A DNA stretch of 64,000 bases from Crossaster papposus (taxonomy: Eukaryota; Echinodermata; Asteroidea; Velatida; Solasteridae): assembly GCA_037893245.1 (NCBI GenBank), contig JBAIAA010000414.1, positions 558,001 to 622,000 of the forward strand, read 5' to 3'. A program made the translations under genes and the position numbers. The stretch's first letter is position 1. Every line of letters starts with the position of its first letter. The notes below the pieces were generated by a model. The model did no database searches. It was not told where the DNA came from and was given only the letters and a program-made list of their open reading frames with translations. Of the stretch, positions 10,828-64,000 are shown piece after piece.

Positions 10828-13800
10828 CTAGACAGAACAAACAATCCTCAATATAAAGTGTCATCTTGTTTTTCAACGCAGACTCTGTTCACACGTGGTT
10901 TTGTATCCACACAAAAGGTTTTGCATTATTCGTAGTGGATGGCAGATAAACATGCGACGAGCAAGGCCAAAAATATCTGTCAGCTACCAGCTCGCAGCGA
11001 GCGAGGCCAAAAAATATCAGGGTGTGCTACCCACAGATGCTGACCTGAACCCATCTCGGATCGAGGTTCGTGAAAAACAATCTTTTGCCTGGGTGCGGTC
11101 AATGTAAAAAAAATTAACCCTGCGCCAACAGGCTAAGCAGCGGTATAACATTAGAAAAATATTAATAAAAAAAGTTGGGGTGGGGCACGAATCATTCTTT
11201 CTCGCATCCGAGAAGCTGAATTGCACAGAATATGGCTACAGAGTGATCGAGCACAGCCAGAGATTGAAAGATTTTTGCGGATGAAGAAAAACCGGAGAGT
11301 CAGACAAAAACCTTGAGGCACAGGAGAGGATCAACGAATAACTCCGAGCTGGGCTTCGAACCTGAGCCAAATTGCTAAGAGATGAACGTATTACCCACTA
11401 GCCACCTATGCCATCTTAACTCGCAGCTGAGAAGCTGAAAAAATTAACACACTTACAATTGTGGGGACTATTTGAAGAAAATCATATACATGTACATCCT
11501 ATACACTTTTCCACAAAACCCCACCCACTCTCAGTTATAATGCAAACCTTCGCTATAATACAAACCTTCCCTTACAATAAATCCTCCCTTATTGTGTTAA
11601 TATTTCAAAAGTCTACCCTGAGCCCAAGTGGCACCTGTCACTAACAGTAACTCTACTTATGTTGTCTGTCTTTGTCAGTGTTCATCCCAGTTCAGCCAGA
11701 CTTTGAAAATGTTGTCTGTCTTTGTCAGTGTTCATCCCAGTTCAGCCAGACTTTGAAAATAACTTGTTAGATTAATACTTGTAACCAAACTTGCTATGGG
11801 CTTGCGATGGACTGGACTGCCATAAGCTGCCGTACCTTAGGATCCTTGACGGTGTGTTTCATGATTTCCTTCCAGTTCTTGTCCACCGTCTGGAACATGT
11901 GTCCTTCCTCAGGCATCTGCTGCATGATGTCTTCCGAGCTGAAGATGGGTTCTAGGTACAGCCATTGAGATTGAACCTTCAGCCATTCGTCGATGGTCTC
12001 CTGGACGCGTAACAACTTCTCTTCCCATTCCTAGCCATAAAAATTACAATTGTCATCTATTGTCATCTGTTTCAGATTAATACCTTGCCAGGATTTTGTT
12101 TGTTTTTGTTTGTTGTTCTTGTTTGTTCCCACTCCTCTGGTTTCTCCCCTTTCTTGTAATACTGTTGCCCACCTTTTCCTCACAACCCCCTTCCCAATTA
12201 CCCCCAGTCACACTCCTTTGTCAGTTATTCCCCTTGATCTCCACCCTGGTCCTTGTGGTTTTACCCCTTCCTTGTTTGTTCCCCACCCAGGTTTTAACCG
12301 GGCCGTTTACCCCCTTGGTCTGCCTTTTAGCCTACCCACTCTGACCTCTTTCATTCCTTCATTATTCATTCACTCATTCTTTCATTCAAAAACTCACTTG
12401 AAAAAAAATTATCGAACAACTATTATTGGAAATTGATACAAAAATTCCACATTTTGTGAAAATGACAGCACACCATCATTTCACAGGTTGCTTGAGACTA
12501 TATTTCACTTACAGTCAAGTAACATATTTCAGAATAATGCAAATGTTTTATATTACCCCTAAGCATACAAATAATTTGCCGTTGGGTTCCCACATAGTAA
12601 AGAATATTTAGGAGTCCTTAAAACTACCTTGAGGTTGTGGGTTACTTTCTGTAACTCTTAAAAAACATAAGCACTTACTGAAAATATCTCAACTGAAAAA
12701 ATGTTTCTGATCTTTTACCTTAATGAAACATTAGCCTTAGCTCAAGTCCCACACCCAAAACACCTACAATTTAAAGGTAGGATACACCATTTGCAGATAT
12801 CAATACATTTTACTACCAAATTATTAAAAAATATATTACTTATTTGAAAGTAAATAATGATTCTACATGTAGGCATCCAGCAAAATGATTGCGCTAGATT
12901 TCCTGTAATTGTTCCTAAAAATTTAATTTGACAAACAAAAATAACTAAATTCGCAAAAAAAGAAAAGAACAAGAACCTGACGCCGGTTGAAAACGAACAA
13001 CGTTTTTCTTGATTATAAAACTTTGGACAGGTCAGTTAAACTATAAAATACAACCCTTCAAATTCACCCAGTACTGATAATTCAAGCAATTACCAGTGGT
13101 GTATCCTAACTTTAACTTTAACGACAAGAGCTTGTGGATAAAGCTTTTTTTTCCTGCAATATTGTAAGTGTTCATGAATGAAAAATGGGGGTTATACAAA
13201 GGTTGTTATTTTTCCTCTCTTACTTTAATTTCTTTCTCAAACGGCTTGATGAACGGCGAGCCACGCATCGTCTGTGTCTTCACAATCTGATCATCCAACA
13301 TGGTCTGTATGTCATCCACCGAGGCAAGGATCTTGACTCCAGTATCACGGTACGTCGTCAGGTTAAACTGAACTTGCTCCCATTCATCTACCATCTTACT
13401 CATGGCCTTCTCCAGGGAATATTCCTGAGGAATCATAGATCATGGATACAACATTATTTCTAGTGACGAGGGCCAATTTTACGGTGTGGCATATTTTGAA
13501 AATGGTGCTCAGCATTGCATGGCATCTTGGCTAATAATTACCTGTTTTTGTTTAGCAAATATTTTAGCTAAAATATAACCGTGAAATAAGCATTAGAGAT
13601 GGGTCTGACTTCATTAATACACAGAAATTAACAAGTTAGCGCCGGGATTATTTTAACATCACCGAGCCGAGGCGCGGGATTATTTTTTAACGAAACTCGA
13701 TCCTAAGCAGGTTCAGGCTGCCAGTACCGAGAAGCACACCCACGCATTTCCGGCCTTGCTCGCTGCTGACAGGGATTTCTGGTCTTGCTCGCTGCTGACA

Positions 13801-16800: not shown

Positions 16801-19800
16801 TTATCAGCACCCAGACTCCAAGCGGTATTAAACAGAGTGATTAAAACCTCTCGAACACACATCTATTCCCTTATTAACTCTCTTCACCCAGAGGTATAAA
16901 CGAGTGCTGATATCAGGTGCTTATATCGGCTGCTGTGTGGCCTGATAAACGGGGTAATAATTGTAAAGCACACTGAGATTGTTGATACGATGGAAAGTGC
17001 CGTATAAGCATCATGATTATTAGTTATCAAATTGAGTATTCATTCACCCATCTGAAACAAAATTTAATTGGACTTCAGTTACTCTAAATACAGCAGTTAC
17101 ATTGTAAGTGCAACTCAGAAACATTAGTCTGAAATAGTTGTAACTCCTCCTACTTTTACAGTACTCTTTTCAACTCTTTTCAAAAAATGATGAAAAAATA
17201 TCTCTTGCACCTTAAAGTATCTACTCATTTAAAAAAAATCAAACTTTTTAAATCTGATAGCATTAGAAACTCTAAATTCTCTAAACCTACTTAAGATTTA
17301 AGCAGTTTAGGCTTATATCTACCAGTACGCCGCATGATCAAGACCTTCTTGGTCAAACGATGATTTCCTTGAAGGGGAGTATCAAACCTTTGCAAGGGCA
17401 ACTGGAAAGACTCACTTTTTCTCGGCTCGCTGCCATTTGACAACCAGGCTGAAGAGTTTCATGTACGGCTCGATAGCCACAGTGATCTCCTCTATCTCAG
17501 GGTAGGTGGTGGCGTCCCATTTGAATAGCTTCTCTTCCTAATAGTCCACAAGTGATTACAAAGTATTACTATTTCAAAGGGAACAAAGAAATTGGCAAGG
17601 CGGGACTCGAACCTGCGACCTCCGGAATACCTGACCGGTGCTCTACTAACTGAGCTATCTTGCCTTATGTTGGCGGTCTCCCAAATTGTTTGTATTTTTG
17701 TTCGAGGGCACTAGTCAGAAGTCATAAACACTAGGATTCGTGTGGCCAGGGATCACACTCAATTTTACAATATAACCTGGGAAGCGACATTGTGGGGATC
17801 ACTCAATGAAGATACGACTTTTACTATTGTCGTTCAAAAGCCCTGTGTATTGATGACATCACCCAATGTTTATCGCATGACATTGCAGATTTCAGTGGGG
17901 ATCACCGCTAAACGCTCGCTACATTTTTTCGTGCAAAATGCAGACACATGATCAGTTTCAAGCCTAGAATACATGGAAGATATTAGGCCCGTACGCAGGA
18001 TTTGTTATGGGGGGGTGCGAATTTTTACTGATGGGACCAAAAATGGAACCAACAATTTTCGTGTGCCAGTACCGTTATTTCTACATCAAAATACTATTAT
18101 TTACCCTGGAAAATGTCGTAATTTGGGGGGCGAATTTGTACTGACGGGACCAAAAATGGGGCCAAAATTGTTCGTGTGCCAGTACAGTTATTTCTTGGTA
18201 ATTTTTGTAATTTTTGTGGTGCGTACGCACCCGTCGCACCCCCCCCCCCCCCCCCCCCCCCCCCATTCCCCCCTTCCCCTTTCCCCCCTTTCTCCCCCGT
18301 ACGGGATATGAATACGTCAGAAGACTGGGAAAGTTCATGACTGTGCAGGAGCTTTACCTCGGGAATCACAGAGTTGAGAAATGAGTGTGGAGAGTGCTAT
18401 TGTATAAACCATGGCGATGACCCCCACTGTCTCTCATGACGCACTGCGGTAAACAGTGCGTAACGTCGTCAATACATAGGGCTATTATAAGGCCAAGTCA
18501 TAATTTAAACAAATCATTTCGGATAGGTGTTAAAGAATTTACAGTTCTGGTAACTTAAATGATTTTGTTGAAATTTTTATTTTTTTCCGAAAGTTTTAAC
18601 AAGAAGTGTAATTGTCCAGGTTAATTGCAAAATTTAAGATATTCTAAAGATAATATCTAAAACTTATACAAATGCAACTTTTGAATGCATTCTGTGCCAG
18701 GGTCCGTCGATATGAGAATTTTCAATGATCGATATATCAGGGATCCAATATCATCTGACTTACACAAACACCTTTGAAAGACAATTAAAGAAGAAGTAAA
18801 ACTCTAACCGTTCCTTGGTGAATCTTACCTTGTTGATGAAGCCGATAGTCTCAGTCACCTCCGCGATACGCTTCTGCACTGCCCTTACGTCGTTGACGTA
18901 CTGTACCATCATGTCCAACTCACCGTACTCTGCAAACTCTGCCACTCGCTTGCGGATTTTATCCAGCTCTACCATGACCTTCTCTCGTTTCTCAAGCAGC
19001 TCGCGCTCATTCTTCTTCTTGGATGCTTCCACAAGCTACAAGAGAACAAAATCACAAACAAATGGGATTGGTTTGACTAAGCCAAATCGGCCCGAAACAT
19101 TAAAAATATGAACCGAATCTGAACCGAAACCGATCAAACTCCCCAACCCGACCAGGAAAACCGACCTGAACCAACAAAAACGTAACCGAACCCCTAAAAA
19201 ACACAATGTTTGTCTTAGGCAAATCATCTTAATTTTCACAAAATGGTGTCCAGTTTTGTGCCTGAACCAGTATCACATGAATATCAATACATCAAGCAAC
19301 TTCCGCCTGTTTAACTGAACATCCCGTGGTAGCCATTCCACTACTAACTTTATTCTCATCAAACACAGGCTTTAACTAAGCCATTTCACTACTAACCTCA
19401 TCATTCTCATCAAACACAGGCTTTAACTAAGCCATTCCACTACTAACCTCATCATTCTCATCAAACACAGGCTTTAACTAAGCCATTCCACTACTAACCT
19501 CATCATTCTCATCAAACACAGGCTGTAACTAAGCCATTCCACTACTAACCTCATCATTCTCATCAAACACAGGCTGTAACTAAGCCATTCCACTACTAAC
19601 CTCATCATTCTCATCAAACACAGGCTTTAACTAAGCCATTCCACTACTAACCTCATCATTCTCATCAAACACAGGATACTAAGCCATTCTACTACTAACC
19701 TCATCATTCTCATCAAACACAGGCTGTATACTATGCCATTCCACTACTAACCTCATCATTCTCATCAAACACAGCCTTTAACTCAGCCATTCTACTACTA

Positions 19801-22800
19801 ACCTCATCATTCTCATCAAACACAGGCTGGATGTTCCTAGGCCACAGCAGGACAGTACAGTTGAGATCAATGTGTTCCTGGCTGAAGAAGTAGACATCTA
19901 GAAGATAGTTCATCCGCTGCTTGCTGACATTGATGCGACCGTTTAGAGCCTGGATACCCTCCACGCGAGCCTTCCCAATGTAGGCGATCATATCCATCAT
20001 CTCGCCAGAGTCTTCTGGCACTTTGAGTGCTCGTTCCTTGATAGTCTGAAACTCACCGCAGATGCTGTTACAAAAACCAATTTCAAAAAATTATTTGTAA
20101 ACAAATTTAAACATTAGTTTGCTTAATCGACCACGGGCACTATGATCTCTTTTTTTAAACTGTTGTCTGTCAGTAAATGAGAAAAACTGTTAACGTGACC
20201 TACCAGTGGGTCTACACATTGTAGACTGTTTGTCGAACCGCAAAACACATGTGCAATCGCACAGAGGTTGTAGTACAAATTGTAGTACAAATGCAATTAC
20301 GAGCGTTCATTTCTTCACTAACTCCTGGCCATAAGGAATACATAAACAACGCTTCAACTATCCGTGGGATATGATACTTTTGTACCACGAAAATTTCAAA
20401 ACTGTTTCAGGGTTTTTTTCTTCAGTTTATTTCATGTTTTTCACAAGATGGCTAAACCGACCAGGTCCGACCCGAACAGCCCAAGCGCAAAACCAAAACC
20501 GACCCGATCTAAACTGTAATGACAGAAAAACCAACTACACCCGACCCGAATTAGGTTTCGGGTCGGGTCAGTTTCAGTTTCAGTTCAGGTTGGCACAACA
20601 TTACAATGGTTATAGTCTCTGACAATGTTACATGCGTCGGGACCCCCGACAGGAAACATGGTATTTGCGTTCCTGGACAAGACACTTTACTAACATTGTG
20701 TCTCTCCAGGAGTATAATTGGCTACCTGTGTCAGGCCTTGAATTTGGCATTTTTTTAGGGCAAGGCCACTTTGGCCTTGATTGAAGCGCGGAGGCTAAAA
20801 TGAAAAAAAAAAATCTTACGCTCCAGCTGCCTGGGGTGTGTGGAAAATCCTATTGAAATTTTAGGCTGTTCACTTTACGCGATCCTTGCGCAGCATTGTT
20901 GATTTTTCTGATTTTCTTCCTCACAAATTCAAGGCCGTTCATTCAGTAGGATAACTTCATCAACAACTTTGGACAATTGGAGCACCGTCCGCCTGCAGGG
21001 TGATCGTGACGACTATCGTTTGCTTCGTACACGAACACACATACGTATTGTGTACCGCGCGTGTAAATAGCACTGAGAAAAAGAAAGTCAGTTGACTTTG
21101 CACGTAAGATCTGCCGTACTTACTCCAGCTGCACGTGTGTGTAGAAATATAAATTACAGACATTATTTTTGCGGCGGAGTGACGCAGCTGCTAGAAGTAT
21201 CGGCACACTCCAAAACTAGCTACTCGACTATAAATATAGTGTACGCTGGCTGCATACCTATGCCGCATACGTTATATTTATTTATGCTATTTACTTTATG
21301 TACAGTACATAGCGAACGCTATATTGATGGGGCCTGATCGCGAAGCTAGATTCAGTTTGTGTCGTTAACATTGCTGCGTTCGTATGCAGCGATACTTTTT
21401 AGAACAATGATTCAGTGATTAGAATACTAACGTAGGCTCAAGTCAAAGGATGTTTTTGAGAAAAAAAAGGGCACGACGGCCAGGGTAGAAATGGGGCAAG
21501 GAAAACTGGCCGTGAAGACGGCAATTTTGAGTGGGGCACCTCGGCCATTAAAAAGGCAACGACGGCAATGGCCGTCGTGGCCGTCGTTTAATTCAAGCCC
21601 TGCTGTGTGAGTAACAAACTTGAACTTAAAAAGGCCAACATATCCACCTCTTGTTTTCTTTCCGGTGGTCAGCAGCCATTCTGTCCAGCAACATATCGGC
21701 GAAACTCTTGGACTTTTCAGCCAATCCTCGTTTGAGATCCTCACAGTCCAGTTGCACCATGTCATAGTGTACAATGCCATCTTGTAGCATGATCTCCTTC
21801 GCTTTGCTGCGAAATTCCTCAATCAACTAAAAACAAGAAAAAATACTAGAATTTGTCCATATGTTTCTATCCAAAATGATATTTCTTATTAATAACAATC
21901 CAAGTTTGTATACATGCAAAATAAGAAAAAAAATTGATAGACGTTTTGTCTATGCTCAAAACTTTTTTTTGTCTTACATGCTAATGTTTCCATTATAAAT
22001 AATCTTGCAAGGTTTAAACTTGTACAATGTACAGTCAAACCTTGATATAGCGGCCACCGACGGTGCCGGTTTTTGTGGCCACTATACGCAAGTGGCCACT
22101 ATAGCAAAATGTACATGTACATACATGTACACATGTGCTCGCATAATGAATGCATGTACGTACATGTACAAGTACATACATGTACATGTAGTACGTGTGC
22201 CCACCATATGAACAACACAACTATATCAATCTGAAAGTGAAACAGAATTTTTCTGAAACACAATTTGTGTTTATTTCTTTCCAATTGAATTGTATTTATT
22301 TATTTTAATCTCAAGGCACAAGAATGGCAAGAAGAAACTTACATAATATACTGTAAATATTATTTCTTTCCAATTGTATTTATTTATTTTAATCTCAAGT
22401 CACATGGATAGGCAATTCACACTTCAAAATGATGAAATAAAACTCAGCACACCCACGATCTGACGTTTAATAAAACGAACACGTACGTTTACATGTGTCA
22501 AGACGACAAGAACTATTTTAGTCTGTGCGCTCGGTACCGTTTGTATAAAACACGAGTATGAAGTCCAGGAACCAAACAACAGGGGAAATTCCAAGTCAAC
22601 AGAGGGCGCACTTCATTTTGAAGGTCGGAGTACACAGGTCTTACAGCAATGCAATTGTACACATTTTATTTGCTGTGGGCTATTATAGGTTGGCCGCTGG
22701 CTGCGTTACGCAGTGGCCGCATTAGCAAGACGTGGTTAGGTATGTTTATGCAAGAATCAAACTGGGACCAAGCAAAGGTGGCCAGTGAAGCCAGGTGGCC

Positions 22801-25800: not shown

Positions 25801-28800
25801 GTGGTTTATAAATCCCGTACTTAGTTTAAATCTACAAAACCAAAGCCTGGCATAGGTGTTATTGAAATCCCAGAGGCAATACCTTTAGATGTTCACATTC
25901 CACGGGTCCCTGTGACCTCTGACCGCTGAAGTCAACTAGGGTCAGTTGGCCTAGGCTGTTCTGACAGAGTCGTAGCACCGTCTGCATGGAGGGATGTGTG
26001 ATGTGTAAGGACTTGGTCATGAGATCCCGGGCTTCTACGTAGCTGTCGTGCCACGGTCGGGAGTAATCCAATCCTCTGAAAAATAACAAATAATCTTTAC
26101 TCAGATGTATCATTTACCTTCAATCTAAACCTGCATATATAGTAGCTGTAATAGGGTACTGATGTACCAATACCTGACCAAACAATGGCAGGTACCCAGA
26201 TCAGCATTGTTTTGCGGTTTATTTGCTGAAACTTTTGGGATCCGAAAAATCCTCTGAATGGGAAGTGGGTCAGTTTATAAATGTGACCAGCTCTACAAAA
26301 AGGTGCATTAAGTCGCGCTGTGCGCTATCATGTAATGACCCGCTCAATGTTGAGAGGGTAAACATTTCATCAAAATGCAGGCCTCGAAATAGTACTAGCC
26401 CGGCGTACAAAGTCTAGCGAAAACTGCTCCGGGCTACCCAGACCCACTTCCTTGGTTGCCCGGTGGGCTAGTGAAAATTTCAGTAACCTACCTGTAAAGG
26501 TTTAGATCAAAATACATGTTAAAATTGTTATTGTCTTTTTGTGTATTAAATAAATATCGGATCAAAATAAAGTCTTTTGTTTGTGTTTTTTGGCATGATT
26601 ATTGATAGCCTGCGAGCGCTCGATCCAAGTATGCATGCAGTGCACTGCGATCTCACGTACAGAGTAGACTGGTGGGCTTCAGTGAGATTAGTATAGTATA
26701 AACTACGGCGCAGGGTACCGCACATATGTGCACTATTCTCTTTCACATCGTTTAGCCTTTCTTACCATAACGGCCCACTGCGTAGCTGTATAGTACATGA
26801 TCGTTCTGCCGTGTCACTAGTAGTAGCGTCTGATACAGAGTCTGTTCAGAACAGCGCCCTCTGTGTACGTTACTATGGATGTACGTATGTGTACGTGCGC
26901 GCGCCGAACGAATAGTTTGCATTGTGCATACGGGCTAGCAAAAATGTAAACGGGCTGGTAAAATCTGCAGTTTGCTAGCCCGGTGGGCTACCCAGGATAA
27001 AAAGTTAGCGCTAGGCCTGAAAATGTGATTTTTATTTTTTGTCATGAATGCGTTTTCAATTCCTACAGTTTCAGGTTTCATTCAAAGAAATGTTGATTTT
27101 GATGAATAAAGTGGAAACAAAATACCATTTTGTGTGCATCGTTCTGTTATACCGGTAGTACAACAGAGCCGGCTATTTCAACGCGCATTTTCTCAGTTGT
27201 GTTATTTGAACTCCAAGGAAGTAATCAATATGTAAACACGTCATATCTCCATAATAAGAGGGGCTATAGAGCTCTATCATATACCAAATGAAAGCGACAT
27301 AATTTGCGACATAATACACCTTTTTGCAGAGAAGGTCACATATATCCCGTAGACTCTGTGTTGCTTTAGAGCTCTTGGACCCTCAAATCCTCTGACGATC
27401 ATTGCACAGATTTCTCACCCCTGCTTCATTTATTGGGATTACAGGAAATTAAGCTGATTACTGGAGACAACTTACTCTGGTTCTTCAGGCAGCTCGCCAA
27501 TCTTGATATTTTCCAGCCCCTTGACGTCTGGCTTGATAAGCACATGTTGAACTACGAGTTAAACAAAAATATAAACAAAAATAAAAATCAGAAAACTCAC
27601 AACAAAAGTTAAAGGTGTAACGCTCGGTTCAGATAGGCGTTCCACAGTCGCACCGAACCAAATTTAAATCAAGTCGCTCCTGAGTCGCTCTAACAACTCT
27701 AGCAGTCGATCGTTCGCCGTCTGGCACGCCTTGTCGCCCTTATTCATTTAAGACGTCGGACTCAATTCACTCATTTGGTTCGGCGCGAGTGGGGAACGCC
27801 TGTCTGAACCGAGCGTAATATTTCCTTTAATGACACAAACAACTAGTTCACACACAGTAGTCAATACACCAGATGATGTCACAATTTGTTACATGTGCGC
27901 TTTTCTATAGAAGCTAGGTGGAAATGAGATCCACTAATCTCCCAAAGGAAAATGCGTATGTAAACAAAGCATGGTGTCATTTTGTAGAGTGTAAAAAGAA
28001 ATTTACAATTATAAGATTTGAAAAGATTTTAGATAAGCTATTGCCCTTAACCGATTCGCGCTGGGACTATTTTAACATTCCTAAACCGAGGCGCTGGATT
28101 ATTTTTAACGAAACTTGATCCGAGGCGAGTTGAGGTCGATGGTATTGGGAAGCACACCCACGCATTTCCAGCCTTTCTCGCTGCTGACAGACATTTCCGG
28201 CCTTGCTTGTTTATGAGTCATCCGTTTTAAAACTCGAGAAAATTGTGTATATACGTCCTCCGGTGCGAACTGGTTAATAAATAGAAAAACGAATCAATAA
28301 ATAAATCAATCAATTTAAATTTAATAAACTAAGTTATTAAAATAAAAAAGAATAATAAAATAATATTTTATTTTGTTTAATAATATCTGGTACACTGAAT
28401 TGTTCACACAGCTTGGCACAGTTTGACTTTAAATTATCCAGACCAAATACACTGTAGCTATATCACGTGATTCGGGGCAAGCTCTTCCATAGTTACGCTA
28501 GAGACACTCAGCACCAATACATTGTTCACAATGGTTGAGAATGGTACAAAGATACCAGACCATTCCAGAGCCGGGGGTTGCTAGCTGGAGAATTTAAATG
28601 TAAACTGTGCCAAGCTGTGTGCTCTTGTATCGTATTACGATCGAGGGTCGAAACAAAAAAGAGAACAAAGGGAACAAAGGATCCTCGAAGGACGGTTTGA
28701 ATGTCCAAATTCGGTCCTCGATTGTTGGGGCAAGCGCTAAGGTAATAGGGTTAGGGTATAACATAGGAATACAGAAAAACACAATAGGGGATCCTCGATC

Positions 28801-31800
28801 GTTATGTGGTTCACGACTATGTGAACAAGTCAGTGTACCAGATATTATTCAAATTCCACACGCAAATGGTCAATTTCTATGTTGTCAACATACCCATGGA
28901 TTTCTTCATACTACTTGTCCAGTTTTCCTTTACTTCCTGAAACAGCTCCTGGATAAACTCCTGCATGTTGGGATTCTGGGTCAGATAGTCTGGGATCAGA
29001 CTCAGTATTTCTTCGAACCAGTGCGGCTCCATTGTTGTCACCGGACTGCTTTCCACACACTGCTTCATGAAGAGATAGTTTTGCTGTAGGATGATGGAGG
29101 ATAGAAGTCGTTAGTGTTTTATAAACAATACCATAATCAACCTGATAATGCATACCAAATAATTCGGGCGATTCACAATGCAGTGCGCCACCAAGCGTTT
29201 GACTCAAAACAGCCACTTTTAAACTTTACGGTCGACTTCTTCCGTATATCATACTGTAGTGAAATATCTATTCTTCATTGTTCACGGCGAGGTACAACAC
29301 AAACATAAATGTATTCGGAAGCGTCGTTGATTAAAACATTGTTATTTGCAGAAAAAAATTGGAACTTTAATCGTGTGCGTCCAAAAAGACGTAAAAACTG
29401 ATGAGTTCATGCAAAATGAATACCGTTTTTTCAAACTGATGCCGACTTTTTCCCATGATGCACTGCGGGTATAGCAGGATTTGCGCCTCCAACGGCAGCT
29501 TCTAGGTATTGTGAATCGCTCGAATTGCCGAGGCTAAACCTAAACTTCTTGATAGTTTGGCGCAAGGCTTCCTTGAACTGTCCCAAATCAAACCCTGAAA
29601 TAATGCTTTATTTCTCCATGTACCTACATGCACAAATGTTGAAAAGCCACGAACCTGGGACTGAGAAAAATGTATAATTTTGATAGAAAATACTTTTAAA
29701 TTACACTCAACTCTCTATAGTCTTGTACACAATTTTTGTTTAATATGGGAGGTAATTTATCTGATATTTCTCAGATCCACGAAAACATGTTCTAAGTTTG
29801 TAACTACCGTAAATGATACAATGATTACAATGTGGTCATATACATCATTTTGTTGTTCCTGATTTTTGTCTTTTGCATATCTTCAAACCACAAACTCAGA
29901 TGATAACAAAATACATAATGCAGAGTTGTATTCGAGTCTCTGCATAACCAGTCACAAGTCCAGTCACAAGTCCTTTCATAAAGTCAGTCGCAAGTAACTG
30001 GTTAAACATTGACAAAGGAATGCTGACAAAGGTGTTCCTGGCTGACACAGCCTCTGTCTACGGGGTTCTTCTGGCTTACGAGCTACAGTGCCTTGAGCGC
30101 GTTTGAAGTATCCTTGAATTCATTACCAGAAAATAATAATAATAATAATAATTATAATTTGAAGAGATAGGGACTTGACTTGAGACTGAAGGACTTGTGA
30201 TGGACTTACAGGGACTCAAATACAACTCTGCTATAATCTGCTGATCCACGACATTCTTGGTAGCGTACTAAAAGACCTTTTTAATTTTAGACCTCTAGTT
30301 TACAGGTCACACACAATTTATCCAATCAGAGCTCAAAGCGCACTTTCCAGCGCCAAGTATGGTAGGACCGAGCAAATGTGTGCAGACAAAACCTGAGCAA
30401 TAACGTGTAGATGGGAAAACCACTATCTGCACTTACCCTGTGCATGCGATCCTTGCTCATCATCTGCATGTTAGTGAGTGATAATGGGGGATGGTTGGGT
30501 GTTTAGAAGTTCACGACAGAACAGAAATTGGTTTATGATCAGTTTGTGTTAGCAATGGGTTGGGAATTTGAACGAATTGAGCAAAATGGTAGATTTGAAA
30601 TCAAGATATGGTATTAAAGTGTGAATTTGGGAGGATAGAAAAAAAACGAGAAAAACAAAAGGTCAGAACAAGTTTCAAAACCACTAGACAAATTTCTTTA
30701 AATAACAAACGAACACAGCTTTAGTATAAAAGATTTTTAATAAATTCTGATACAATAACAAAACAGCTTTTATGAACAAGAAAGATTTCAATGAAAGCAA
30801 CTAGGGCTGCAACGGTTACACGGTTACACGGTTAACCGACCGTTCAAACGGTTACACGGTTACATTTTTCTGGTTCGGTTAACCCCCTTTTTTTTCCTTT
30901 TTTTTCTTTTTTTTTTTAATACAAAAAACCTACCAATTATCAACTTTGTCCGGGTTTCGTTGGAGCTTTTTGGTTGGGAAAAGGGATGGTTTCGTTGGAG
31001 CAGGTCACAAATAGTACAACTGATTAAATTGTGTATGTACTGATAGCTTATCTAACATATAGTCGGCCTACATTACACAAATTGATGCAGACAATTACCA
31101 ATCGCAGAACTGCTCAAATTAGCAGCGCTAATTAGATATGCATTACAGGGCCGTGCAATTTTTCTTTATTTATTAGTATTTTTTTTTAAATATTTTTTAA
31201 ATATTTCTATATTGCTACGGTTACGGTTAACCGTAAACGTAAAACGAACGGTTACACGGATAAATTAATAACCGCAAACTGACAGCCTTAAAAGCAACGT
31301 TAATGCAAATTTCATATCGGCAAAAGCATCTAGAAAATAGAAACAAATATATCTTGGGGAGTAAAAGAGCCTCCTTCAACTTTTTAACCAGTTCGCGTCG
31401 GATGACGTGTATACACGCAAAATATTTATGCAGAAATACACGCAGAAATATTTGTCAGCAACCGGCTAGCAGCAAGCGAGGCCGGAAATATCAGGGTGTG
31501 CTACCCATAGATGCCGGCCTGAATCCATCTCGGATCGAGGTTCATGAAAAAAAATCCCAGCGCGAACTGGGTAAAAAGCCTGGACAAGAAACAATTTTGT
31601 TTTTGACTGGTATGGAGAACTTGATATACATGTATTATTAAAGAATAAGTCAGTCAACAAGAAAAGATTACCCGGCTATTGCTTACCGATGTTGGATAGG
31701 ATGGATTCTGTGCTGCTAGGGGCCTTTTCTTATTAATATCCCCAATCTCCAGCTCTACCTCCTTAGCATCCTTGTACAGGATATCCGTCAGCAGATCCTG

Positions 31801-51861: not shown

Positions 51862-51963
51862 AATCCGTTATTACGGATTAGCAATCCGTTATTACGGATT
51901 TGCAATCCGTTATTACGGATTTGCAACCCGTTATTACGGATTTGCAATCCGTTATTATGGATT
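51862..51963. repeat. Palindromic satellite array, 5 copies
   Basis: Five 21-bp units whose core is the 18-bp palindrome AATCCGTTATTACGGATT. The left subterminal array of the 3.58-kb transposon. Confidence 0.95.
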
Positions 51964-54592: not shown

Positions 54593-54920
54593 ACCATTCG
54601 CACGTTACAAGTCACGTAAAATCGCAAATATTTTCGCGAAATCTTTGCCAAATTGCTTAGGCTTTCACAACTCATCGTGCTCACAAAATCTAGAACTTGC
54701 ATTCAACTTGCCTTCCAGTGTTTTCTTCCGAGTAGAATGGCTGTGAACCTTGTTGTATTGGTGTACTGTTACAGACAATTTTACACCCAAACAAAATACA
54801 TACACGCCGGAAACGCTAAACACCGCGGCACTGCACTTTGGAACCAAAATGGCTCCATACACCACGTGACCTAGCCGTTTTGAGTCTGTCATGTCGCAAC
54901 TCTCTCTATCTACGGCTCTG

Positions 54921-55255
54921 GTCACTCTGCATCCCTAGAGTGCGGTGTGGTGGTACGTACGTACATGTTTTCAACGTGATTGAGTGACCGAAGAGCTATT
55001 GTGATTATGAATCCGTAATAACGGATTGCTAATCCGTAATAACGGATTGCTAATCCGTAATAACAGATTGCTAATCCGTAATAACGGATTACGAATCCGT
55101 AATAACGGATTGTGAATCCGTAATAACGGATTGCGAATCCGTAATAACGGATTTGAATTATATTTTTTGCTGGCACTAATGGGCCTTCGTACTCAATCAC
55201 GTTGAACACGTGTACGTACCACGTACCACACCGCACTCCAGGGATGCAGAGTGAC
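54921..55255. repeat. Nested inverted repeat around the 7-copy array
   Basis: The left arm GTCACTCTGCATCCCTAG...GCGGTGTGGTGGTACGTACG...CAACGTGATTGAGT is matched by the complementary right arm ending GGATGCAGAGTGAC at 55255. It splits the outer element's right subterminal block, so it looks like a later insertion of a related element into the parent. Confidence 0.7.
55010..55154. repeat. Palindromic satellite array, 7 copies
   Basis: Seven 21-bp units of the same palindrome starting at 55010, 55031, 55052, 55073, 55094, 55115 and 55136. They form the loop of a nested inverted repeat (54921-55255), and the array is followed by its own copy of the GCTGGCACTAATGGGCCTTC terminus. Confidence 0.95.
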
Positions 55256-55284
55256 CAGTAAATAGCGCCCTCTAGGGATGAGTG

Positions 55285-55366
55285 AATCCGTAATAACGGA
55301 TTGCAAATCCGTAATAACGGATTGCTAATCCGTAATAACGGATTGCGAATCCGTAATAACGGATTT
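55285..55366. repeat. Palindromic satellite array, 4 copies
   Basis: Four 21-bp units starting at 55285, 55306, 55327 and 55348. The right subterminal array of the 3.58-kb transposon. Confidence 0.95.
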
Positions 55367-56294
55367 GAATTATATTTTTTGCTGGCGCTAATGGGCCTTC
55401 GTAGTATACTATGTTATTGTGTATTTATGTATATAAATATTCGTGAACATAAACTGGCACTGGTGTCTGTTTTGCTCTTATTTGGGGGACTCAAGTCTTG
55501 TTAGACTAATTCACTCGAGTCGGGTCAAGTCATTCTGATGAGGTACTTATAATTAAGTCGAGTCATTTGACTGCAGTGATTCGAGTTATGTCATTTACCC
55601 ATTTGCCAAAAAAATGTGACTCAAGTCCAAGTCAAGGAATTGACTCGGGTCATTACAACTCGGGGAAGACGTCACACGCATGCATTGTTCGGTCCAAAGC
55701 AACGAACAAATATGGCGGCCGGACAGTGGATACGTTAAATTAACTTGATTAGAGGTCTAAACATAATTATTCATTGAGCTCATTTTGACTCTAGAAGCTG
55801 ATATTTCAGCCCAACGTTGTTAGTTGTTTGTGACTGACAGAAAGCAGTAAATTAAATATGCAAGGAAGCCTCAGTCCGATAATGACATGTTGTCAATGGA
55901 TACGGCTACGAGCATTGAGCACCACGTGTAGATTATAATGGCTCAGGTTTGAGCGTTTGTTTATAGCACGGCTCTCGTGGCTAACCTGACTGACTTTACC
56001 CGTGTCGACTCGGGTGAGCTGAACGAACACACCCATAGAAGTCGATTATTAATGCACAGATAGATCAAGGCCCTTCATAACAAACTAGCGGATGCAATCG
56101 TAACTAAATTTTTATTTTTTTTTGCTTTTTTGGCAAATCTGTTTCTTGAGACTTGGAGTAATTAAATATTAAACAATAATTATCTCTACGAAAACACCCT
56201 AAACGTATCGCTATTATGCAAAACATAACGTTCATGTAGAAAAAGTGACAACAATGTTTCACCAAGGTTTATCACGCCCACTAGGGGTCAACAT

Positions 56295-58488
56295 CAGGCC
56301 CGTCAGATGGGGGGGGCGACGGTTGCGAACGCCCCCCCTTTGAAAATCTTTTTTTTTTTTTTTTTTTTTTTTAAGGTAAAAATTGCGTTTTTGGTTAAGA
56401 GAATGATGGCGCTTTCCCATCCAGTGACATTCCTCTCTCTGTGACTTGTATGGCTTAATTTAAGCACGAAATAGTCTAGGCCCGTTATGTCCGAAATAAA
56501 TGGAGTGGGCGAACACTAAAGACTAGATGACCGTATGGTATAAGATAAATCAAATGTGATTTTATTTGGGGTGCGAGGGGAGAATTGTAATCGCAAATTC
56601 TCTTGTGTTAGCAATAGCAGTGCTTTCGTGTCTTTACTGTTATGACACTCGTCAGTTGCAGGTAGGTGATTCCATGGTAAGGAATCGGGTCTAACTCGCA
56701 AGGTGTGTGGGTTTGGTGTGGTTACAATCAATGAACGTGAATTCCAGGTATTTGGAACTTAGCCATATTATTTATATTGGGTCCGTATTATTTCTCTTGT
56801 ATAGAGAGCAGTATGTTGGGTTACAACTGTGTTTTTTTACTGCTTGGTGTTTTAATTGTTACGGTCCGGTTGTTTATGGCTCGGTTGCTGATTGGAATTG
56901 GCGTTTTTGCGTTCGCATTTGCCAGAGAAGAGGTTTGATATTTGTTGGTTAAGTGATCTCATTGTTACCTTTTTTCGGTTTATTTCTTGCCATGGCTTTC
57001 CTATGCGGAAATTGTATATGAATATAATGAATATATTCGGATTGTGGGGCACATTGTAGGCAAGAAAAACCGTTTGGTTTGTTTTGGTTGATGAGATGTT
57101 TTAGGAGGGATGTTTCCCTGGTTTTGTTGGTATTCTCTGGGGTATATATGTACAGTTTGCGTACGTAAGATGGGTAGCGTGCAAAACGGCGTGGCCCGGT
57201 GGATGATACCGTGTTGTGATTGGTCATCTTATTATCCAATGGGTGCTCGGATGCGATAGAGCGGAAAACAGAGCATGGGTTGTGAACTCATGTTGTGGAT
57301 TTGGGCTAAAAGTGTGTTTGTTTTTTGTTTGAAAAAGCCATTATTTATATTTTCCTATTTTGGAAAATAGTTAAATGAGGTATGGGCTTTTAGATAATTT
57401 TTTCTTCTATCTTTTGATAGTTGTTTAAGAAAAAATCAAAACATCTAACCGTGTGCGGTGATGGAAAGATACGTTTTTTTTGGTGTTTGAAAAAGAAACA
57501 TATGGTCAAACCGTGTGCGGTATTTGGACAAATATGTTTTGGTCGGCCCTTTGTTTATGAGTATAGCGGCTACGTTGTGGCTGGTTTGTTTCAAATGTTA
57601 TAATGTATTGTAGGTGGAATAATCCCGTCTGCGGGTTATTTGTGTTCCAAATTACAGATTTGCTGATGTGCGTTCAGGTTTTTATTTGTTTAAACAAACG
57701 AGATGGCCGGGGTTTCCATGTTAGGATATTTGTACTGGTTGTTTTCCGAGTGCGAATGTGTGTGGGATATCGATGTCATGTGACGTCTTATGTGTGATAG
57801 ACTTATTAAAGCCAAGTCTGTGGTTGTACATGAGTACTCAAAGCAGAGAGAGAAACAACCTAATTGACTTAAGCAACTACAGTTTGTAGTAGTCTCTACA
57901 GTTTGATCCATTGTAACTTCCTAACACCATTTATGCATTTGCTACAATGTTCCTCAAAGTTCCAACTAAGGGCTAGGCTGACGTCATTAATGCGCAAACA
58001 GACTACTGCGCATACTTATTATGCACGAACGGACATGTGCTTTAGTGTTGCTACGACAGTTGATTTTTAACCCGGATTTTTAGTACTGATTAAGACATGG
58101 TTTTGAAACAATAATCTGACATAACGGTGTTACTTAGTCTATTTATGCAAATCACGACTTGGAATTAAAAGGATAGAAGGGAAATAAACGGTGTTTTCTC
58201 ATTTCCTTGTACACTTATTTACACACGTGACCATGTTTTGTCACGTGATCACACGCTGCAACTCGTCAACGGACTGGTGGTGGAAGGTTGTTAAGATTGT
58301 TGTAGAATCATGTCAAAAACTACTTCCGGTATTTCTGTGCGTCGACCAACAAGAAAGGTAAACTATGACACCATAATGGAACATTAAAATAAGAGAATGA
58401 GCGTGTTTTCGAAGGAAAATTTTTTGTTTGACTTTTTTGTTGTTGTTGAAAACGCCCCCCCTTTGAAAAAAGTGTCTTACGGGCCTGA
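56295..58488. mobile_element. 2.19-kb non-autonomous DNA transposon with 5-bp target duplication
   Basis: Termini CAGGCCCGT...ACGGGCCTG are flanked by AACAT on both sides (56290-56294, 58489-58493). A second inverted block, CGCCCCCCCTTTGAAAA, lies inside each end (on the left followed by a T25 tract). The interior is GT-rich with no recognisable transposase. Superfamily not assigned. Confidence 0.75.
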
Positions 58489-58493
58489 ACATG

Positions 58494-59015
58494 TAAATTG
58501 AGGTCACCTGATAGTACCCCATTTACCAAATATTACCAGGGAGAATGTAACCAATATTTCTGGCATTTTAATGTTATTAACAAGGTACAATGTAACCCAT
58601 ATTACCTCTCATTACCCTGTTATTACTCGGTAAAATGTCGGTTTCAATAGGGTAATAACAGTAATTTTTGGATTAACAATTATTTTTCTCATTAGAAACA
58701 TAGCCTGTCGGCCTCGAGGATAATTTATATCTAATCCTTATCCTCAGATACCAAATATTAAGGAATTTATAACACTTTCATTATCACACAGGTAATATCA
58801 TTTGGGTAATAACACGGTAATATCGGTAATATTTAGTCTTGGTCAAATTTTAGGGTGATATTATCGGTAATGTCGGTAATCGGTAACAAATTGCCCAGTG
58901 GGTCATTCCGTGAAATACCTTTTAGGCAAACAAGTAATCTTTTGGAAGGTGCGGTCAGGCACAATAACGATATCTGCTCAACAATCCTACAAAATTGGAA
59001 TAATTCATCTCCATT
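58494..59015. repeat. ATTACC/GGTAAT-rich stretch
   Basis: ATTACC predominates at 58510-58640 and GGTAAT at 58780-58890, so the two halves are roughly inverted. This may be the decayed end of the neighbouring Harbinger element or an independent MITE. Confidence 0.4.
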
Positions 59016-59545
59016 CTAACGCAGTTTGTAAGGTTTTTTGTATAACTGTTCACCATTACAAATTTTGTGTTTTTTATGTTTGTGTGATTTGCAGTATCGA
59101 AAGTTCCGTAAATCAAGTAAAAAAAAGACTAAAAAGGCAATCTTACCAAACTTGTGCAGACAGAGCCACCTCATTTTCCATCGCCCAAATGTGGCCTCTA
59201 TCTTCTGCTGTCGAGTCCTGCGATGATGTCTGTTAAAACGAACTTCCGCTTCATCTTGTGGGTTGGGTACAGGCGTGAAGAGCCACTGGCGCAACGGATA
59301 GGCGCTATCGCCAAGAAGGTACGAGTTTTTACCGATTAGGCCAGTCTGAAATTCATGGTTGAGGTAACAGTTTTCCCATATAAATGCATCATGCGTGGAA
59401 CCGGGCCATTGCACAACAATGTTCGTGAATTTCAAGTCATGGGAACATATTCCTTGAATATTGATTGCAAGGAACTGCTTTCGACAAACGTATGCATCCT
59501 CATCTCGAGCCGGCATTTTTTTGATTGGAATTTTAGGGTCCTAGA
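59016..59545 (-). CDS. Harbinger transposase, catalytic C-terminal block
   Basis: The frame can be read from a TTCTAG acceptor at ~59545 (an internal ATG lies at 59516). WPGSTHD and IEATFGRWKMRW supply the remaining Asp and Glu of the DDE triad. It ends with a Lys/His-rich tail at 59016. Confidence 0.78.
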
Positions 59546-59562
59546 AATGTGGTTTTTATTAG

Positions 59563-60807
59563 TAGTCCAGGCAAAATACATAATTTTGTTTTGTTGACCT
59601 CAAACAAATTGCAACAAATTGTTTTTCACCACAGTGCACTTCTATAAGGTCCCTAGAATGACATACTAAAAATCTACAAGAATCCAAGTGGTGGAAATAT
59701 GTCTAATTTGCATAAATCGTTAATCCCTGCCGTGTAATATGTTTATATTCCCATATTTGGGTATATATTTTATTTTTATTTTTTGAAAAGTTTATTTTGG
59801 CGATTATACTTAAACATCCTTACTTCAATAACATTTTCTAAAGCATGTAAGTGACTAAATAATTATGAAAATAATAGTAATGGTCCAAAATTACTACAAT
59901 TATACCCTATCATTTGCACGCATTTACCTTGTCTCCAGATATCATCAAGTAGTAAGTATTGAAGTGCTTTAAATTCACCAAGTTGCTTACTGGCACAGTT
60001 ATCATATTAAAACCTTATGAAAAATCATATGGACAATGATAACATTGTGATATTTAGCCCAGCAAACAAAAACTTGGAAAAAATGATGTGTCCCTAAATT
60101 GGGCTAACAAGTAGGTGAAGGGTTGCCTAAGGTGAGAAACTTGAACAAGTTCAAGGAAATCCCCAAAATACATTTTAACGTAGATATGATTATTGTAAGC
60201 AACAAAAATCTTAAATTTGGGGGGTTTCCTTGAACTTGTTCAGGTCTCTCACCTTAGGCAACCCTTCACCTACTTGTTAGCCCAATTTAGGGACACATCA
60301 TTTTTTCCAAGTTTTTGTTTGCTGGGCTAAATATCACAATGTTATCATTGTCCATATGATTTTTCATAAGGTTTTAATATGATAACTGTGCCAGTAAGCA
60401 ACTTGGTGAATTTGAAGCTCACCAATACTGACTACATGGTGATATCTGGAGACAGTGTAATGTGCGCACATTTATAGGGTCACAAAGTTGTCATTTTTGA
60501 TAATTACTGTGTTCTCATAATTATTCAGTCACTTATATGCTTTAGCAAATGTTATTCAAGTAAGGATATGTAAGTAGAATCACCAAAATAAACTTTAAAA
60601 AAAATAAAAATAAAATATATACCCAAATATGGGAATAAACATATTACATGGCAGGGATTAACGATTTATGCAAATTAGACATATTTCCACCACTTGGATT
60701 TTTGTAGATTTTTAGTATGTAATTCTAGGGACCTTATAGAAGTGCACTGTGGTGAAAAACAATTTGTTGCAATTTGTTTGAAGTCAAAACTTATTTTTCC
60801 TGGACTA
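59563..60807. repeat. Large fold-back (inverted repeat) element, ~1.24 kb
   Basis: The left arm begins TAGTCCAGG at 59563 and the right arm ends CCTGGACTA at 60807. Arms of ~590 bp run inward as near-complete reverse complements with a few indels to a loop around 60165-60220. For example, GCCTAAGGTGAG on the left matches CTCACCTTAGGC on the right. There is no ORF of note. It lies within the intron of the Harbinger transposase. Confidence 0.85.
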
Positions 60808-61088
60808 TAGTTTAAATGGAAGATTATAACTAATTGAGTGATTTTCAGTTTATAAAAGTTTTATTTTGGGGTAATTAATATGAGAAAAAAAATAATAAAG
60901 TGCTTTGGGGGACCGGCCCCGCCCCTAGAATGGTAGCTTATTAACATATAAAATTTGCATAATTGTGAAGTATGTTCGGGAAGACTTCGACGTCGCGACT
61001 AGCGCCACCATTTGTCAGTGTTTGAACTTGTGAACTTTTATACCATTTTATCACCCCTGGTCTTGTTACTTACACACCAAGGCACATT

Positions 61089-61631
61089 TTAAATTATTAA
61101 ACAGCAATTCTCCTCGAAAGGTCTGCGTAGAACATTTAAACTTCCATCCACACACCCCAACACATTCGGTATTTTATGACGATTTTGGTAAAAGTCTTTC
61201 TTTAGTATATCCTGACTTTTTAAATCTCTTGGGAATGTAATTATTCTCTGAAACTTCCTTTGGAGTGCAGTTGCTACACGTATTACAATTATTGAAACCG
61301 ATGGTTGGCTGATTGCACTTAAGTCCCCACAGACAAGTTGAAAATTTCCAGTGGCAAAGTAACTCAATGCATACATAATCTGCAATGATGCCGGTATGGC
61401 CTGTGATCTCCGGGTGGGATGTGCTACAGCATCGTTGATTAGGTCGATTACTTGTAAGATAACATGCCGATACAATCTATACCTTTTAATGAGTTCTTCA
61501 TCGTTGTAAGAATCTAGTGGCTGAAACCGGTCACAGAAAACCCGCTTGCGCTGAAGAGCACGTTGTTCAACTTCCTGATTCAAACATTCCGCTATATGAG
61601 TGCCGCTATTTTGACGCTCGAGACGATCCAC
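61089..61631 (-). CDS. Harbinger transposase, N-terminal block
   Basis: Open frame from ATG 61631. It contains CLNQEVEQRALQRKRVF, a long helical domain, and IPNVLGCVDGS with the first acidic catalytic residue. The last ~15 codons after GCVDGS do not match the family and probably run into the intron. Confidence 0.75.
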   Translation of the reverse strand: MDRLERQNSGTHIAECLNQEVEQRALQRKRVFCDRFQPLDSYNDEELIKRYRLYRHVILQVIDLINDAVAHPTRRSQAIPASLQIMYALSYFATGNFQLVCGDLSAISQPSVSIIVIRVATALQRKFQRIITFPRDLKSQDILKKDFYQNRHKIPNVLGCVDGSLNVLRRPFEENCCLII

Positions 61632-61926
61632 GCAAGTTTTTATTTATTCCATTTCTTTACCCAGGGTGTGCCCAAACAGTTTAAAACTGGTTTTCATTGG
61701 GGCCCTGCATACATCATCAAATAAAATAACAGTACATATTATAAATACAAGGATATTACAGGAATTCTAAACATTAATACTAATTCTGATTTACGAGATA
61801 GGCGAAAACCCGCCAAATAAAAAAACCTTTTAGGTGAAAAATAAGAAGGGGAAATTCCTATCCGGCTCCACATTAATATAGTGGCAACCAAGTTCTAACT
61901 TCGTAGATTGGCATAATATCTAACAC

Positions 61927-62292
61927 TCAGATGGCATGTCGGAGCTCTGATTTAAATGTGCTTAATGAGTCCAATGTTCGCAATTGTTCGGGCAGATTAT
62001 TCCAAATATTTGCACCACTCACAGCGAAACTTGTGGCGTAGCATTCTTTTTTGGCGAAAGGAACTTTCAGTGCCGTGTGGGTTGATTGCCTTGTTTCGCG
62101 AATTACTGTAAGTGGAATAGTAGTTGCGGGATGTCTTGAGGTCCCGCCAATGTTCGAGTGGTTTACGGGCACACGCAGATTTAAGGGTGTTTTGTGATTT
62201 ACCCGCAAGTGCTTACGGGAGGGTTGCGGGGAAGTTGCGTGCCCGTAAATCGTTGCGGGTGTTTTGTGAAGAAGGACCCTTTCCCCTGGCAC
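61927..62292 (-). mobile_element. Non-LTR retrotransposon fragment, C-terminal end of reverse transcriptase ORF
   Basis: About 120 codons ending ANIWNNLPEQLRTLDSLSTF plus a short tail, preceded by REKxxxTxxKVPFAKKE-like text. The IWN-LP...S.STFK ending is typical of the last residues of LINE polymerase ORFs. The upstream polymerase is missing, which fits a 5'-truncated copy. Confidence 0.6.
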
Positions 62293-62512
62293 ATACGCAA
62301 ATGCAGCGGGCCTATCCCCTTTAACACATACGAAAATACAGCGATCCTATCCCCTATGACACACACGCAGATGCAGTGGGGACTATCCCTTATAACACAT
62401 AATAATAATTATTATTAAATGCGGAGGGGCCTACCCCCAATACATACGCAAATGCAGCGCGGCCTACCCCTTATATTACACATACGCAAATGCGGCGGGG
62501 CCTATCCCCAAC
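62289..62512. repeat. Tandem array of ~36-47 bp ACACATACGCAAATGCAGCG units
   Basis: About six imperfect units (near 62289, 62325, 62372, 62395, 62441, 62478), each with GGGGCCTATCCCC-like text. A second short cluster of the same unit is at 63279-63390. Confidence 0.8.
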
Positions 62513-63656
62513 CATCCTGAGCTACGCAGCGCTTTTACGAGCTTTCTACTAATAGCTCTCAAACCCCTGCGGGCACTGGGCAAGATCCGTGATCATTTGG
62601 CGCAAAGATCAGAGCCTCCGTTACAAACAGACCAAGGCATGCGAACCAACCTCGACCACAGGCATGAAATTGCAGTTTTTCATTCATAAAACGCCGAGGT
62701 TGGCTTACAAACAAACAAGATGGCGGACGACCCTCAATTCGATTTTTTTTTGAAGGAAAACATTTTCGAAAAGTTCCGTGTTCCGTGCCTAAATGACCTA
62801 TGAAAACGCACCATGAGGAAGGCTCGTATGATGAAGGCTCGAATGTTATAGTGTGTTCTAAGACTGAGAGCGGTAAATCCCTGATGTACCAGCAGACAAT
62901 TATTGGCTTTTTCACCCGATCTTCCCGAAGTTCTTCCGCGACGCGCAGTTCTATTTGTCCATTCGCTTGGGCATCCGAGGTGTTCTCACAAAGTTTTATC
63001 CTCCCACGTAAAAATTAAAATTATTCGGAGAAATTGTAGAAATCAACGTATAGCGTGAAATAAAGCTTTGCTATTATAATGTTACACACAATGAGAAACA
63101 TAAAACACTGAAAAACTACGTAAACGCCAATAACATTATAGGTGGTAGAAATTGTCGATTTACCAGGGGTGGACGTTCATATAATGTATTGGCCAACTTG
63201 TTTAATGGCAAATAGTCGCAGGGTTCGAGGGCAATAATTCAAGAGTCCGTTAAACTCTGCGTGGCTCAAGATGATCCCCAACACAAACGCAAATTCACCC
63301 CAGCCTATACACTAACACATACGCAAATGCGGCGGGGCCTACAACTAACACAACACAAATGCAGCGGGGCCTACCTCTTAACACAAAACATGCCCTGGAG
63401 GCGGACGTCACTCATTATAGGGAATTCATCATTTTAACAGAGAACTCTCTCAAGTGTGACAAATAAATACTGGTAGTAGGTGCAATTTAAACGTAAGACC
63501 GAAGTGCTATGTGGTTGCGAGGTAGAATCGCCTTTAATGGCCGTCCATACCTTGCCAACAGCGTAGACACGTACCGTGCGCTATAGGCGGATCGTAACCG
63601 TCTACATTTTGAGGTGTGCTGCAAGTCCACAGAACAATCAAAGACAGACTATAAGT
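62513..63656. other. Upstream region of the SLC16-type gene
   Basis: Open frames on both strands at 62559-63018 match nothing known. The short repeat cluster (63279-63390) is the only structure before the start exon. Confidence 0.4.
63279..63390. repeat. Second cluster of ACGCAAATGCGGCGGGGCC units
   Basis: About three units of the array described at 62289-62512, separated from it by ~770 bp of other sequence, 270 bp upstream of the SLC16-type start exon. Confidence 0.7.
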
Positions 63657-63861
63657 ATGACCAGCGACTCAGGTGAGAACCGCCAACATTCCTGGCGGTG
63701 GATGATATTATTCTCTCGCTTCATGTGGTCGTTTATCGGCCTCGGTAAACTAAAAGCCATGGGAGTTTTTCTTCCGCACATCGTAGTTAGCTTTTCCACC
63801 AGCACAGCCGTCGCAGGGTTCGTGACAAGCGCCAGTGTGGGCGTGGGGAGTGCAGTATGCG
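63657..63861 (+). CDS. Probable monocarboxylate transporter (SLC16 type), first coding exon
   Basis: ATG at 63657 opens 68 codons ending at a GCG|GTGAGT donor (phase 1). After a short polar start, a WxW motif (HSWRWM) leads into a hydrophobic helix. GKLKAMGVFLPHIVVSF and a second helix follow, ending GSAVCG. This matches the start of SLC16-family carriers, where a (D/G)GxWxW motif precedes TM1 and a KSxGVFL segment lies between TM1 and TM2. Substrate class would be monocarboxylates or relatives, at a membrane. The rest of the gene lies beyond the window. Confidence 0.6.
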
Positions 63862-64000
63862 GTGAGTTTGTAACACTTTGTTGACAGTATATTCTACCAT
63901 GGAAGTAGACGTATATTATAGCGACGACATTAGGCCGTTTTGTTGCACGTATATATTACAATATTATACACATATATAGTTCATGTCTATGCGCCCCGAG

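Follow-up and report, generated by a model that had tools for sequence, protein, structure and literature searches.

A length-variable minisatellite copying an exon end and its 5' splice site in a DNAH12-type axonemal dynein gene

A DNAH12-type axonemal dynein gene carries, at the end of one of its exons, a tandem array in which about ten units repeat the last bases of the exon together with its 5' splice site, and a second contig holds the same region with 14 units. We consider this array, with a probability of about 80%, to be a tolerated and nearly neutral boundary minisatellite that turns over at a splice site. It lies in the window, the whole stretch of 64,000 nucleotides that was analysed (on contig C414), where TRF reports 9.9 copies of a 51-bp unit at 19331-19828 (94% matches, score 868), overlapping the exon end at 19803-19828. 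The features concerned are as follows:

19331-19828, minus strand: boundary minisatellite of about ten 51-bp units (48-52), each with about 27 nt of intron start and about 24 nt of exon end
19803-20064, minus strand: DNAH12-type axonemal dynein exon that supplied the exonic part of the repeat, with the open frame ICGEF...VFDENDE
20064/20065, minus strand: putative acceptor of the source exon, AACAG/C (here and below a slash within a motif marks the splice boundary), placed from sequence
19797-19802, minus strand: authentic 5' splice site GTTAGT, from which splicing yields the ungapped junction FDENDE/LIE as in two DNAH12 chains
18829-19035, minus strand: next exon (LVEASKKK...FINK) with the acceptor TTGTAG/CTTGTG

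In minus-strand orientation each unit consists of the exon end GTGTTTGATGAGAATGATGAG, followed by GTTAGTAGT and then about 18 more intron bases. There are ten GTTAGTAGT sites on this strand of the window, with the G of the donor GT at 19802, 19751, 19699, 19651, 19600, 19549, 19498, 19447, 19396 and 19348; nine of the ten, the authentic donor counted, read GAG/GTTAGT and the last reads AAA/GTTAGT. The 21-base core GATGAGAATGATGAGGTTAGT matches the window nine times with up to three mismatches, always within the array, whereas 100 shuffles gave 0.00 matches on average; this rules out chance repetition as the origin of the array. The TRF result, the site count and the shuffles together confirm the original prediction of a ten-unit minisatellite made of the exon end and the GAG/GTTAGT donor; the unit length of 51 bp that it gave holds for most units, but units 2, 3 and 9 measure 52, 48 and 48 bp. 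With the array as query, the genome (1.02 Gb, 1841 contigs) gave matches in at least two places, the window and contig C279, and a dispersed repeat was rejected because these two contigs alone were hit among the matches listed. Within the dynein gene, 14 exon boundaries (eight donors and six acceptors) were tested for nearby copies of themselves, and the donor at 19802 alone was positive, with eight further sites inside 3 kb (up to four mismatches in 24); the other 13 boundaries have no tandem copies within 3 kb. On the plus strand of 19331-19828 each donor GTTAGTA reads TACTAAC, which is the consensus of the yeast branch point.

The intron that separates the source exon from the next exon is 767 nt long, and the two exons joined across it (19803 to 19035) match the DNAH12 chain 8j07_g1 without gaps (phmmer, E=5.1e-51, query 1-156 on chain positions 506-661), as they do the DNAH12 chain 9fqr_PW (E=6.6e-50, 156 residues without gaps). 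DNAH7 chains are weaker matches for the exon pair (phmmer, E=8.2e-15 and 2.9e-13), and the two Pfam matches to it were both under the cut-off. FDENDE stands in the same position in both DNAH12 chain sequences, neither of which has an insert at the junction. This ungapped match identifies 19802 as the ancestral donor and FDENDE as original exon sequence, so that the intronic copies derive from the exon tail; by homology, the exon-proximal copy is thus shown to be the authentic coding end and donor. This supports the view that each repeat unit combines an exon end with the donor that follows it, and that the array holds many identical donor sequences.

The effect of the extra donors on the reading frame was assessed on products assembled in turn from the exon, the extension that each donor would add, and the next exon. 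Three parts of the array can be told apart in this way:

19752-19802, minus strand: unit 1, the sole unit open in frame (17 residues), with GAG in place of the TAG of most other units
19746-19751, minus strand: first extra donor, GTTAGT, with the sole open product among the extra donors (+17 residues); TTTAGT in C279 (C279:976141)
19331-19745, minus strand: remaining units with eight extra donors (19699 to 19348), each meeting an in-frame TAG

Use of the donor at 19751 would add 51 nt, or 17 residues, in the window and leave the frame open, since GAG replaces in unit 1 the TAG of most other units. The other eight of the nine extra donors in the window run into TAG after 23 extra codons, the unit after unit 1 reading VSSGMA-stop, and because one unit has 52 nt the donors from 19699 onward are also out of frame. 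The prediction that every donor is usable and would lengthen the protein by 17 or 34 residues does not hold beyond the donor at 19751, and the addition of 34 residues is rejected because of the stop codon in the second extra unit. Predicted pairing with U1 is -6.3 kcal/mol for GAG/GTTAGT and ranges from -4.5 to -9.5 kcal/mol for eight other donors of the same gene, one of which is also GTTAGT and most of which were placed by open frames and consensus, not by homology. Pairing is predicted to be much weaker for the degraded last donor (-1.2 kcal/mol) and for the broken donor of C279 (-1.3 kcal/mol). Eight extra donors share the nine bases of the authentic one, so local strength does not explain why the first donor should be chosen, and its choice would have to rest on position or exon context. 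We infer that the first donor (19802) does nearly all of the splicing.

The window is collinear with C279:951262-1015058 over 33 chained pieces (46.9 of 64.0 kb aligned, mean identity 94.5%). The source exon and the authentic donor are intact in both contigs; the source exon differs at three synonymous and three nonsynonymous nucleotides (A27S, G30Q) and the next exon at three synonymous positions only. At high identity the exon protein is found just in C414 and C279, with two weak matches (26%) to an exon that the analysis labels DNAH7-like. Among the matches listed, this DNAH7-like dynein exon is likewise present twice, on C209 and C566, which are 97.3% identical there across 2,678 nt; this, together with the collinearity of the whole window, suggests that C414 and C279 are most likely two haplotypes of an uncollapsed assembly. 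The exon series of the class III Adh gene, in contrast, is on one contig only (C379), so that not every gene appears twice, which counts against a fully two-haplotype assembly. A segmental duplication was considered for C279 on the same evidence, the collinearity and the paired DNAH7-like exon favouring an allele and the single-contig Adh opposing it.

The predicted variability in repeat number is borne out by these two contigs, with 14 units in C279 and ten in C414. Their first five units have the same type and order and are one base change apart, unit 1 being identical; the irregular last two units also correspond, and most of the length difference is interior, where some C279 units measure 55 and 57 bp (one 4-base and two 6-base insertions). 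The single base change in the first five units falls on the first extra donor (unit 2), which is GTTAGT in C414 and TTTAGT in C279, and all 12 intact extra GT donors of C279 meet an in-frame stop, none giving an open product. The array is thus length-variable, and the extra +17 isoform, having lost its donor in C279, is not conserved. Shared first units and a shared irregular end around a differing interior form a pattern such as minisatellite turnover would give.

The comparison of the two contigs also brought out other differences. Over the last 9.1 kb (54912-64000 against C279:1005950-1015058) identity rises to 99.6%, from mostly 83-98% elsewhere, as if the putative haplotypes shared a recent segment there. 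Gaps in the alignment, such as 20731-21603, 28381-28872 and 29164-29523, are insertions in one contig only, with an overlap of a few bases at the junction of the other contig, as is expected of mobile elements with target-site duplications. At 11659-11760 TRF reports a perfect tandem duplication of 50 bp (2.0 copies, 100%); the alignment breaks at this point and its flanks overlap by 50 bases in C279, which suggests that this contig has the segment only once. Three separate arrays in the window, at 51862-51963, 55009-55153 and 55285-55365, have nearly the same palindromic 21-bp unit (AATCCGTTATTACGGATT...).

We propose that the array began with the tandem duplication of a segment that reached from the end of a conserved dynein exon into the first part of the intron, and that it then grew and shrank within the intron, probably by slippage or unequal exchange. 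Copies downstream of an intact donor would be removed with the intron at little cost, leaving the array to drift in length with near-neutrality. Mistaken use of a downstream donor would nearly always bring in a stop codon and give an unproductive transcript, and one haplotype could in principle yield a rare form with 17 more residues. The coding sequence being intact in both contigs and the sole open extra donor being lost in one of them support such a tolerated array. Against it, eight extra donors have the 9-nt sequence of the authentic one; both contigs have the same open unit 1, as a functional +17 form also predicts; and the donor hexamers are intact in 23 of 24 cases across C414 and C279, which could reflect either constraint or the youth of the array. 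Inspected by eye, the alignment of the units has changes in both the exon-like and the intron-like parts.

Copying of exon boundaries by tandem repeats is already known from amphioxus mirages, from human IFI6 and from intron gain by tandem duplication. Mirages are described, in the available text of the reports, as minisatellite-like tandem duplications of exon-intron boundaries in the amphioxus Adh3 and globin genes (PMC3087553), and are also cited for TnC and PGBD5 (PMC3902484). The globin gene BflGb6 has six and three units in its two haplotypes, the Adh3 array is present in both B. floridae and B. lanceolatum, and a role in intron gain has been proposed for these arrays (PMC3087553). Many of their units carry splice signals, and regular splicing was not disturbed as judged by RT-PCR (PMC3087553); both reports, as far as their available text goes, give arrays of like build as leaving splicing undisturbed (PMC3087553, PMC3902484). 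The present array resembles what is so described for Adh3, BflGb6 and BflGb9 in that tandem copies sit at a boundary, splice signals stand within the units and copy number differs between haplotypes. Here the repeat unit spans an exon-intron boundary whose position is fixed by DNAH12 homology, and the difference of ten against 14 units is one between haplotypes if, as we infer, C414 and C279 are alleles and not products of a recent duplication. It differs in lying in a DNAH12-type dynein gene; a search of the literature found no description of DNAH12 in combination with a minisatellite. It differs also in that Adh3 of the present genome, unlike that of B. floridae and B. lanceolatum as described, is free of an array across the matched exons: eight of 13 matches to class III Adh identify the gene on C379, and none of the seven TRF rows in the 9.9-kb region there overlaps any of the eight matched exon stretches. 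The presence of two copies and their strong divergence would suit a lancelet host. The GFP family, taken as a lineage marker, gave no match in a search whose control gave none either. In human genes within segmental duplications, variable internal tandem repeats at exon-intron boundaries are described in the available text (PMC2812944), and the change in minisatellite copy number at such a boundary is common to them and to the present array; they differ from it in concerning recently duplicated human genes with transcript support.

An unlikely alternative is that the array acts as a device for length-variable donor choice, in which U1 picks among identical donors to give varied dynein tails or regulated unproductive transcripts. 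Its nine GAG/GTTAGT sites, authentic one included, its varying copy number and the open first extra unit with its 17 residues would all suit such a device. So would the human IFI6 (6-16) minisatellite, which Turri et al. reportedly described in 1995 as giving multiple splice donors. The downstream units of that minisatellite, according to the available text, are used as splice donors and give several mRNAs (PMC4526556), and like the present array it is a tandem repeat located at the end of an exon, with candidate alternative donors in its units. Unlike in IFI6, however, seven of the eight extra GAG/GTTAGT donors and the degraded last one are here predicted to meet a stop, and among the nine extra donors in the window one would give a translatable product, while the 12 intact extra GT donors in C279 would give none. 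The single productive extra donor is TT in C279, and both DNAH12 chains are without an insert at the junction. In-frame donor choice could thus contribute no more than a minor product, and that from one haplotype only. A more specific form, and a very improbable one, is an allele-dependent splice switch, in which the haplotype with an intact 19751 donor would make the normal dynein tail and one longer by 17 residues, the 14-unit haplotype with the broken donor would make the normal tail only, and the number of decoys would set the share of transcripts diverted to unproductive mRNA; if true, the dose of axonemal dynein would be adjusted by a heritable rheostat, the number of repeat units at a donor.

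It is very improbable that the array represents early intron gain or a boundary shift, in which AG/GT units are later spliced to each other (the Rogers model). Since the duplicates are already part of an intron, splicing from unit to unit would leave the mRNA unchanged, and inspection of the unit shows no tract of pyrimidines ahead of GATGAG. A unit of about 51 nt is moreover very short for an animal intron. AGGT does occur within every GATGAG/GTTAGT unit, and tandem duplication of AGGT-containing segments is described as an accepted route to new introns (PMC4974935), and new introns that arise from boundary repeats are reported for duplicated human genes (PMC2812944), within the text available for both. 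The present array shares the AGGT-containing tandem segments with the former but, unlike it, has its duplicates within an existing intron, with no new AGGT-bounded intron and no inserted exon relative to the DNAH12 chains. An assembly artefact, by which one or two true copies were misassembled into an array, is scarcely credible: tandem arrays are often misassembled, and an aberrantly assembled boundary array is described for the amphioxus draft (PMC3087553, available text), but here two separately assembled contigs share variant units in order and have different interiors.

Taken as a tolerated boundary minisatellite, the array by itself reveals no new mechanism, and nothing in these sequences shows that new protein forms are made from its extra splice signals. 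As a clean natural instance of a conserved gene with a whole series of identical 5' splice sites, in two putatively allelic lengths, it lends itself to testing how the spliceosome picks one donor out of several that are the same. Such an array may be a kind of raw material for new introns or splice forms. If the host is not a lancelet, it suggests that boundary minisatellites occur beyond the few amphioxus genes in which they have been described.
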